This document shows, in pieces, positions 10,097-51,303 of a stretch of 64,000 nucleotides of DNA (position 1 is the stretch's first letter; the number at the start of each line of letters is the position of its first letter). Below the pieces are notes generated by a model. That model saw only the letters and a program-made list of their open reading frames with translations, did not search any database and had not been told where the DNA came from. The DNA comes from Tamlana sp. I1 (GTDB lineage Bacteria > Bacteroidota > Bacteroidia > Flavobacteriales > Flavobacteriaceae). A program made the position numbers and the translations under genes. The stretch is from contig NZ_JACLAF010000005.1 in NCBI RefSeq assembly GCF_015355625.1, positions 1-64,000 on the forward strand, read 5' to 3'.

Positions 10097-10111
10097 GGGA
10101 GCAGCTAATCT

Positions 10112-10222
10112 GTGTTAGCGATAGTAGTGGTTAGCTTTTGGCGAGCGGCCGCTTCGAGCCAAAACTAGTAACGGATAGCGCGACCACCTTTTACTCCTTA
10201 AAAGTAAAAGGTGGTAACACCC
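10112..10222 (+). ncRNA. Structured intergenic element, copy B (Flavo-1-like candidate)
   Basis: The strand shown folds into a closing stem GTGTTA (10112-10117) with TAACAC (10215-10220), a first hairpin TTTTGGC (10136-10142)/GCCAAAA (10158-10164), a linker AGTAACGGATAGCGCG, and a second hairpin ACCACCTTTTAC (10183-10194)/GTAAAAGGTGGT (10204-10215). A second element with the same layout lies at 40837-40924. From memory the layout recalls the Flavo-1 RNA motif of Bacteroidota, but I cannot verify that. It lies between two minus-strand genes. Confidence 0.55.
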
Positions 10223-11899: not shown

Positions 11900-11981
11900 G
11901 CGGGCGTGGTGGAATTGGTAGACACGCTAGACTTAGGATCTAGTGCCGCGAGGTGTGGGAGTTCGAGTCTCCCCGCCCGCA
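11900..11981 (+). tRNA. tRNA-Leu (anticodon UAG)
   Basis: The acceptor stem GCGGGCG (11900-11906) pairs with CGCCCGC (11974-11980), with discriminator A at 11981. The D-arm region GGTGGAATTGGTAGACAC, the anticodon stem CTAGA/TCTAG around loop CTTAGGA (anticodon TAG), a variable arm TGCCGCGAGGTGTG and T-loop GTTCGAGTCTC are all of class II Leu type. CCA is not encoded. Confidence 0.97.
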
Positions 11982-11991
11982 CTAATAAAGG

Positions 11992-49910: not shown

Positions 49911-49979
49911 TGTTTGTCAGGTCTTGTCGAAACCCGTGTTGAAAATCACAACGTTTAATAGTATAAAAACCGTTTGTCA

Positions 49980-50205
49980 GACCTTTCAGGTTTTAAAAAC
50001 ATAAGTGTTCGGAACACAAAATTTTAATTAAAATAGATTAATTAGATTTAGTTTGTTCTATAAAACATTAATAAAACTGGCTCCTCCCTTCGTTTTGAAG
50101 GGAGGAAAATTTCGATGAAATCGAAATGAGGAGGGTTAAAACTATAAAAAAAACATATGAGCTTTCAACTTCCGAACACTTATGTTTAAAAAAAACTGAA
50201 AGGTC
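49980..50205. repeat. Large inverted repeat between convergent genes
   Basis: The arms are 49980-50013 (starts GACCTTTCAGG) and 50171-50205 (ends CTGAAAGGTC). They match over about 34 bp apart from the A/T run. The 157-bp interior holds nested dyads CCTCCC/GGGAGG (50086-50108 area) and ATTTCGATGAAATCGAAAT. It lies between the receptor and a lipoprotein gene and ends in a T run. 49911-50232 holds no gene. Confidence 0.82.
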
Positions 50206-50232
50206 TTTTTTTAGCTATTTGCAATAAATAAC

Positions 50233-50661
50233 CTAATTCGAAATATAAATAATATTTCCACTTCTATTGGCAGGGTAGAATTTTAGCGAACAGGTTAACG
50301 CATCGTTATTATCGGCTGCACCTGTTATAAAATTATAGCGGTTACCGTCATCACATCCGCATGCTCCAAAAAGACCATCTGGAATTATGGCAGAACAATC
50401 GTTTGGTGTGTGGTTAGGGTCGCTAGCATCCCAAGCTAAAATACTCGAGCCAGCATTGGCGACAATCACTCCTTTGTTACCAATATTAGGGATGTAAATG
50501 GAGTTGCCAACATTATTTAAAATGGAGTACTGCGGCAAGCTTAAATCAATGCTGTAATTAACCGTAACATCAAGAAGGTAATTACAGTTATTATCGGCGT
50601 CAGAATTGTTGCTGCAAGCGTATAATAAAGCGAAAAGAATAATGGTGTATATCGATTTCAT
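50233..50661 (-). CDS. Rieske-like lipoprotein with degenerate cluster site
   Basis: 142 residues. The signal ends LLYAC (Cys16). The C-terminal half follows Bacteroidota Rieske lipoproteins (AWDASDPNH, GACGCDDGNRYNFITG, LKFYPANRSGNIIYIS), but the Cys-x-His pairs needed for a 2Fe-2S cluster are not intact: the usual first CPH reads DPNH and the second CPCH reads CGCD. It probably has a Rieske fold without the cluster. It diverges from greA. Confidence 0.65.
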   Translation of the reverse strand: MKSIYTIILFALLYACSNNSDADNNCNYLLDVTVNYSIDLSLPQYSILNNVGNSIYIPNIGNKGVIVANAGSSILAWDASDPNHTPNDCSAIIPDGLFGACGCDDGNRYNFITGAADNNDALTCSLKFYPANRSGNIIYISN

Positions 50662-50719
50662 AGGGTCTTAAAATATAACGGCAATTTACAACAAAAAGTA
50701 AATTGACTTAAATATTTTG

Positions 50720-50727
50720 TATATTTG
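50720..50727 (+). promoter_or_regulatory. -7 box of greA
   Basis: TATATTTG fits the consensus. The candidate TTG at 50703-50705 is only 14 bp upstream, closer than usual. Transcription should start near 50733. Confidence 0.6.
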
Positions 50728-50733
50728 TGTGAC

Positions 50734-50758
50734 AATCTCGTGCAAACGGGATTTTTTT
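50734..50758 (+). promoter_or_regulatory. Terminator-like hairpin in the greA leader
   Basis: AATCTCG (50734-50740) pairs with CGGGATT (50747-50753, one G-T pair), loop TGCAAA, followed by seven T. It begins at the expected transcript start and lies 72 bp before the greA ATG. No upstream plus-strand gene needs a terminator here. Confidence 0.7.
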
Positions 50759-50762
50759 GTTT

Positions 50763-50801
50763 GCTGAATCCTTTAACATCATTTTGTTAAAGTTTGTCAG
50801 C
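50763..50801 (+). promoter_or_regulatory. Second hairpin in the greA leader
   Basis: GCTGA (50763-50767) with TCAGC (50797-50801) encloses CTTTAAC (50771-50777) with GTTAAAG (50786-50792). It ends 28 bp before the start codon and has no T run. Confidence 0.65.
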
Positions 50802-50829
50802 ATCTTTTATTAAGTAAAATAATGAAGTT

Positions 50830-51303
50830 ATGAGTAAAGCATCGTACTATACACCAGAGGGGTTAAAAAAATTAAGAGACGAGTTAAGACAACTTAAAGA
50901 TGTAGAGCGTGTAAAAGCGTCGAAAGCCATTGCTGAAGCACGAGATAAAGGAGATTTAAGTGAAAATGCCGAATATGATGCTGCTAAAGAAGCACAAGGG
51001 ATGTTAGAAATGCGTATTTCTAAATTAGAAGATGCTTTGGCAGGAGCGCGTGTTATTGATGAATCACAGATGGATACTTCTAAAATTTTAGTATTATCGA
51101 AAGTGAAAATAAAAAATCAAACCAATGGTATGGAAATGAACTATACTTTGGTTGCCGATGGTGAAGCTAATTTAGCGGCAGGAAAAATTTCTGTAAACTC
51201 ACCTATTGGTAAAGGTTTGTTAGGGAAAACGGTTGGCGATGTTGCTGAAATACAAGTGCCTAACGGGGTTATGAAATTTGATATTATTGAAATTTCAAGA
51301 TAG
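50830..51303 (+). CDS. greA: Transcription elongation factor GreA
   Basis: 157 residues. An N-terminal coiled coil reaches into the RNA polymerase secondary channel, with the acidic tip signature GDLSENAEYDAAKEAQ (Asp and Glu at the tip), and the C-terminal FKBP-like domain holds SPIGKGLLGKTVGDVAEIQVP. It stimulates cleavage of backtracked RNA. The leader carries two hairpins; a terminator follows at 51379. Confidence 0.96.
   Translation: MSKASYYTPEGLKKLRDELRQLKDVERVKASKAIAEARDKGDLSENAEYDAAKEAQGMLEMRISKLEDALAGARVIDESQMDTSKILVLSKVKIKNQTNGMEMNYTLVADGEANLAAGKISVNSPIGKGLLGKTVGDVAEIQVPNGVMKFDIIEISR

Follow-up and report, generated by a model that had tools for sequence, protein, structure and literature searches.

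A conserved terminator-like hairpin where the greA transcript of Tamlana sp. I1 and its relatives is predicted to begin: a probable partial terminator

Introduction

Why should the predicted transcript of greA begin with what looks like a transcription terminator? The question is raised by the greA locus of Tamlana sp. I1, which lies within the window analysed here, a stretch of 64,000 nucleotides. GreA acts on young or backtracked elongation complexes, and the control of its level is not fully understood even in Escherichia coli.

The initial annotation of the window described a terminator-like hairpin at the expected transcript start and a second hairpin ahead of the gene, likened the arrangement to the E. 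coli greA leader with its short GraL RNAs, and proposed that leaders be compared across the Flavobacteriaceae. Passages of the E. coli study (PMC6829880) report that about one third of the transcripts read through the leader terminator, and that GreA, when catalytically active, acts through GraL to reduce its own expression; the feedback shows in vivo but fails to show in vitro, and involvement of a further factor is suspected. Sections of a survey by Naville and Gautheret (2010, PMC2965389) describe attenuators of greA and of rnk in Proteobacteria, bacilli and Clostridia. We asked whether the Tamlana hairpin is a genuine and conserved element, and what it is likely to do.

Organization of the greA locus

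The greA region of the window contains the following features, in which the second hairpin stands out as lineage-specific.

50233..50661, minus strand: divergent neighbour ORF of 142 aa, lipoprotein-like, from the ORF listing
50720..50727, plus strand: -7 promoter box TATATTTG, consensus TAnnTTTG, recognized in the sequence and kept 5' of the hairpin in relatives
50732, plus strand: predicted transcription start, an A, with the last base of the box placed at -5
50734..50753, plus strand: terminator-like hairpin AATCTCGT-GCAA-ACGGGATT, 8 pairs and a GCAA loop, predicted +3 to +22, with covariation
50752..50758, plus strand: T run of seven T, the first two inside the stem, where a short RNA of about 25-27 nt is predicted to end
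50762..50802, plus strand: second hairpin, outer stem TGCTGA/TCAGCA, inner stem CTTTAACA/TGTTAAAG, then TCTTTTATTA
50830..51303, plus strand: greA, 157 aa, the single PF03449 match in its own genome
51377..51407, plus strand: terminator-like hairpin 3' of greA, 13 pairs, from the terminator scan

Compared over 149 positions, the greA product has 44% identity to E. coli GreA, and the two have in common a GDL-ENAEY segment, the acidic residues of which we take to be the catalytic ones of GreA. The predicted start follows from the position of the promoter box: according to passages of PMC9723704 the TAnnTTTG box of Flavobacterium psychrophilum covers -12 to -5, which places +1 of greA at 50732, two bases 5' of the stem.

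The terminator-like hairpin that had been claimed is thus present where transcription of greA is predicted to begin, with the box, the stem and the T run in the order expected. The hairpin (AATCTCG-TGCAAA-CGGGATT, 50734-50753) contains eight pairs, namely the seven already written in the initial annotation plus T50741-A50746, and three of the eight are G-C. The accompanying description of the hairpin as followed by seven T holds in that all seven are present, but two of them belong to the 3' arm, and five T are therefore unpaired. A hairpin that contains G-C pairs and leads directly into a stretch of T on the coding strand has the form of an intrinsic terminator; this one, with three G-C pairs, is a weak example, and with five unpaired T its predicted strength as a terminator is moderate at best. 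Because the neighbouring ORF at 50233..50661 is divergent, the hairpin ends no upstream gene in the window.

Within its own genome alone, the leader hairpin is no better than chance: a terminator scan of 5 kb returned four terminator-like sites including this one, and shuffled sequences gave 3.0 (sd 1.7). The leader from 50733 to 50829 folds with -26.3 kcal/mol (z -5.13), beating all 200 shuffles, and much of this folding energy is due to the second hairpin at 50762-50802. When the window is searched with Rfam at gathering thresholds, the greA leader matches none of the families, and a relaxed search of 50600-50900 returned nothing for the leader, the best chance match having an E value of 0.12. 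That we take the hairpin as real is because of its conservation in relatives, and not because of single-genome statistics.

Conservation of the leader hairpin in related genomes

We compiled 110 greA loci from the family and order, 30 of them obtained by searching 60 related genomes (among which 52 greA leaders were examined) and 80 as named loci from genome contigs. A strict detector, which demands that a -7 box be joined by a terminator-like hairpin beginning at most 14 nt away, accepts 98 of the 110 greA leaders, as compared with 24/1164 other boxes in the same loci and 7/980 dinucleotide shuffles; this detector and the relaxed one described below were written after the leaders had been inspected, and the 110 leaders are mutually related. 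Several of the 24 control boxes that pass are followed by the greA 3' terminator itself, and when identical leaders are counted once (L002 is the same as L003) the strict count becomes 97/109. An earlier first detector had accepted 83/110, its limits on the T run and the loop causing it to miss leaders with a visible hairpin. The relaxed detector accepts 106/110, and the other four (L067, L098, L109 and L110) show the hairpin by eye, but since it was fitted to variant boxes it is no test.

The arrangement of box and hairpin looks peculiar to greA within this sample. In 464 kb of the Tamlana genome and three relatives only 6 of 631 boxes pass the strict detector, one of them being the greA box of the window, and a covariance model run on the genome of the window finds the greA leader site with an E value of 1.5e-4, the next match standing at 0.43. 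The initial annotation had allowed that the hairpins might turn out not to be conserved; the strict count contradicts this, as does the wider distribution in the Bacteroidia described below.

The neighbourhood of these loci bears on whether the hairpin might be the terminator of the upstream gene, lying by chance past the greA promoter and kept as an insulator. The nearest upstream ORF is divergent in 87/110 loci, the window included, and was called co-directional in 20 (several of which are probably spurious) and not found in three, so that in the majority of these loci the hairpin is not the end of a gene upstream. Many Bacteroidia outside the Flavobacteriaceae do have a co-directional upstream gene with no other visible terminator, and a hairpin can serve both genes; yet the distance from hairpin to promoter is kept in loci where the upstream ORF is divergent, and we regard such an origin as quite unlikely.

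Covariation in the stem

An alignment (A1) was built from 84 of the 106 leaders, leaving out RNA lengths above 36, duplicates and odd picks (L022, L093, L102, L105 and L108). Of its 670 cells 95.4% are paired, and sliding the partners reduces this to 33.0-58.0%. Six of the eight pairs have changes on both sides, the second A-T and the first C-G being those without, and two-sided changes occur in 38 cells; shuffling gives a mean of 12.5, and not one of 500 shuffles reached the observed value. The compensating stem changes looked for in an intrinsic terminator are thus found, and the stem letters vary by lineage with the pairing kept (CTCG..CGGG, CCCG..GGG, CCTC..GAGG and GAGAGCTC..GGCTCTC). The proposed comparison of leaders across the Flavobacteriaceae has in this way come out in favour of the hairpin on both counts, conservation and covariation.

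The same pattern weighs on the possibility that the leader chiefly yields a small RNA which targets other mRNAs in trans. Such a role has been proposed for E. coli GraL, which is reported in passages of PMC6829880 to act in trans on nudE. The predicted short RNA would resemble GraL in its origin; however, an exchange of sequence between lineages with the pairing kept fits conservation of a shape and not of a seed, and the predicted RNA would be almost wholly double-stranded. We consider a role in trans very unlikely.

Spacing and strength of the hairpin

Measured from the predicted +1, the T run ends at a median of 28 nt, and at 25-30 nt in 85/106 leaders, whereas the distance from the T run to the ATG varies from 13 to 220 in the same 106, its middle half covering 23-73. 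The tight spacing to +1 and the loose spacing to the ATG tie the hairpin to the promoter and not to the start codon. The stem core starts at predicted +1 to +7 in 97/106 leaders. Past the core the T fraction over the first six places is 0.96, 0.96, 0.75, 0.90, 0.69 and 0.82, declining to about 0.2-0.3 from place 13, and the longest T run is at least five in 90/106 leaders and at most four in 16/106.

A stem core in this position in the Flavobacteriaceae is where a protecting hairpin would sit, and the element could in principle shield the greA mRNA from 5'-end dependent decay, or shape its translation, with no termination taking place. This would leave unexplained the T run, with its near-uniform first two places and its length in most leaders, and a purely stabilizing role appears unlikely to us.

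When the leader plus 60 nt is folded, the mean pair probability of the stem is at least 0.8 in 82/106 leaders, below 0.8 in 24 and below 0.5 in 13. A 3' terminator of greA was found in 30 loci, and in 26 of these the leader hairpin is the weaker of the two (median -9.7 vs -13.9 kcal/mol), which fits a leaky terminator. Some leaders (L048, L050, L053, L059, L064, L019, L021 and L025) have an enlarged loop of about 30 nt, in some cases with an inner hairpin, while the basal stem and its position at +1 are unchanged.

Distribution in the wider phylum

Forty of 118 phylum genomes were fetched, the first 20 comprising two of the same family, two of the same order and 16 of the same class, and the other 20 coming from more distant families. 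A terminator-like hairpin is found within 130 nt of the greA start codon in 19/20 of the first group, and before greA in 18/20 of the second; L117 and L143 are among those of the 40 that are without a match. Shuffles in this promoter-free test on the 40 genomes reach 134/800, so that single matches are weak, and the hairpin picked in L126 and in L121 is probably a different one from the conserved hairpin. Forty further genomes were newly taken from 60 of the class; two of their leaders, L180 and L183, had already been counted in the 110 as L104 and L109. Here the detector finds a hairpin before greA in 39/40, about 36 of them convincing by eye; L218 has no match, and the hairpins of L205, L210 and L215 are unconvincing. 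A further set of same-order genomes gave 15/20, with no hairpin before greA in L242, L244, L250, L252 and L253. Between lineages the hairpin sequence is replaced and its position is kept. GreA paralogues of the same family and order have a terminator-like hairpin in 4/15, a rough figure because their starts were guessed as the most upstream ATG.

Fifty-five of the other Bacteroidia leaders with a hairpin were inspected for promoters. Of these, 46 have a -7-like box at most 50 nt to the 5' side of the hairpin, and two have one in the stretch that separates the hairpin from the ATG; boxes of this kind lie 3' of the hairpin in L235 and L187. The gap between box and hairpin is looser in these leaders, reaching 36, and a strictly terminal stem is therefore not general. 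Several of the most distant genomes, in which the promoter is not established, have a co-directional upstream gene, and the hairpin there may terminate that gene too.

If transcription truly started downstream, the hairpin would be a relic or a chance structure. The site alone is indeed no rarer than chance, and its +1 is a predicted one, but the conservation and covariation of the hairpin speak against this, as does the usual place of the box on its 5' side. A start 3' of 50760, which the initial annotation had named as a finding that would count against it, is unlikely because the conserved -7 box lies upstream of the hairpin, and we hold the relic explanation to be highly improbable.

Very small genomes are seen among those that have no greA leader hairpin: L218 (G195, about 0.5 Mb) and L253 (G051, about 0.3 Mb). 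The hairpin may be lost on genome reduction.

A proposed role in greA expression

The promoter box, the hairpin, the T run, their fixed mutual spacing, the covariation and the wide conservation are all seen in the sequences, and it is from these that we propose, with a probability of roughly 0.7, that the leader hairpin and T run act as a partial intrinsic terminator throttling greA. RNA polymerase would start at about 50732, and the first 20 or so bases would fold into the hairpin while leaving the enzyme. At the T run part of the complexes would then release an RNA of about 25-30 nt, and the remaining complexes would read through to give the greA mRNA. Termination would have to be partial, because a promoter box between the hairpin and the gene is not usual. 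Intrinsic termination so near +1 is close to the shortest workable RNA, and a conserved termination decision at this point would rank among the earliest known after promoter escape.

Because the Flavobacteriaceae stem begins at +1 or a few bases past it, there would be no upstream RNA to serve as a riboswitch, T-box, leader peptide or antiterminator. The antiterminator pairing that precedes the decision in a classical attenuator or riboswitch was likewise not found, there being no RNA upstream of the stem. With no sensor RNA, whatever adjusts read-through should work directly on the young elongation complex, at which GreA, Nus factors, retained sigma and NTP supply are candidate tuners. Feedback by GreA is our first guess, by analogy with E. 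coli, because active GreA lowers its own expression there via GraL and the GDL-ENAEY segment is shared, although it is a tentative guess that we would not back at even odds.

A terminator at the transcript start with almost no upstream RNA would represent the system stripped to its minimum, and if feedback does persist in the Bacteroidota then leader sequence and RNA-binding partners cannot be its cause. A broader and more doubtful conjecture is that the pairing of greA with a sensor-free, promoter-proximal terminator is older than the Bacteroidota, with the just-escaped polymerase acting as the sensor and GreA setting its own level via read-through, while lineages keep the place, replace the sequence and, in reduced genomes, lose the element.

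Comparison with other greA leaders

The likeness to the E. coli greA leader that was originally drawn stands as far as layout is concerned: the gene is the same, and an intrinsic terminator with a T run lies in the 5' leader directly past the promoter, between the promoter box and greA, with a short RNA predicted here. The position is that of GraL, the promoter in the present case being a box identified by sequence only. The two differ in other respects. Passages of PMC6829880 give about 19 nt (from P1) before the GraL hairpin and RNAs of 37-59 nt, and state that full GreA feedback needs sequence upstream of the terminator; here about two bases lie between the predicted +1 and the hairpin, the predicted RNAs are of 25-30 nt, and there is almost no upstream sequence. 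The unpaired segment that comes before the GraL hairpin was not found in the Flavobacteriaceae leaders, given where their stem cores start, and the E. coli and window hairpins have no shared sequence that could be seen by eye. Because it is without a leader segment before the hairpin, we describe the flavobacterial element as GraL-like in layout and not as a member of GraL.

Outside the phylum the comparison covers one E. coli leader that was inspected, with other taxa taken from the sections of PMC2965389 cited above. The premature terminators described in those sections likewise lie upstream of greA, but their clusters each have a clear antiterminator, for which the Flavobacteriaceae leaders offer no upstream room. 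The Rfam cis-regulatory leaders are also RNA elements of 5' leaders, although none reaches its gathering score here.

The word Bacteroidetes is absent from the main text of PMC2965389. A search of the open-access literature, supplementary tables lying outside it, found no report of a greA leader terminator in the Bacteroidota. For F. psychrophilum, PMC9723704 refers to a list of 64 structured 5' regions in its supplement, and the passages drawn on from its main text do not name greA; the term is absent from the main text of PMC7366714, and greA is not named in passages of PMC8040213 and PMC7247131. Leader terminators of greA are thus known in Proteobacteria and Firmicutes, and the Bacteroidota variant, none having been found reported there, appears to be new.

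The second hairpin and other features of the window

The second hairpin before greA noted in the initial annotation is present at 50762-50802, but it is no general part of these leaders. Some second stem, of at least six pairs with three G-C, separates the T run from the start codon in 46/106 leaders; it occurs mainly in the genus of the window and its neighbours, being absent from many Flavobacterium leaders that have some 23 nt past the T run. We take it to be accessory and lineage-specific.

Two other candidates in the leader were set aside. An alternative pairing at the level of the genus (GCAAAC/GTTTGC and GGGATT/AATCC) was considered as an antiterminator or pseudoknot, but its partners lie 3' of the T run, the alternative fold wins in the window only at about 40-60 nt, that is, past the T run, and the partner AATCC was seen by eye only in L001-L006. 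A three-codon ORF (ATG AAG TTA TGA, 50822-50833), the stop of which overlaps the greA start codon, has counterparts overlapping the start of greA in 47/110 loci; it was dropped as a part of the mechanism, being absent from the other 63/110.

Further elements lie elsewhere in the window. A MITE-like element at 49979-50206 has terminal inverted repeats of 16 and 24 nt (94% and 92% complementary) and 29 matching places in its own genome, of which about ten, that of the window included, cover most of it at 86-100% identity. A Flavo-1 RNA is found at 10110-10189 with 46.3 bits, against an Rfam gathering score of 42, and a tRNA-Leu is located at 11900-11982.
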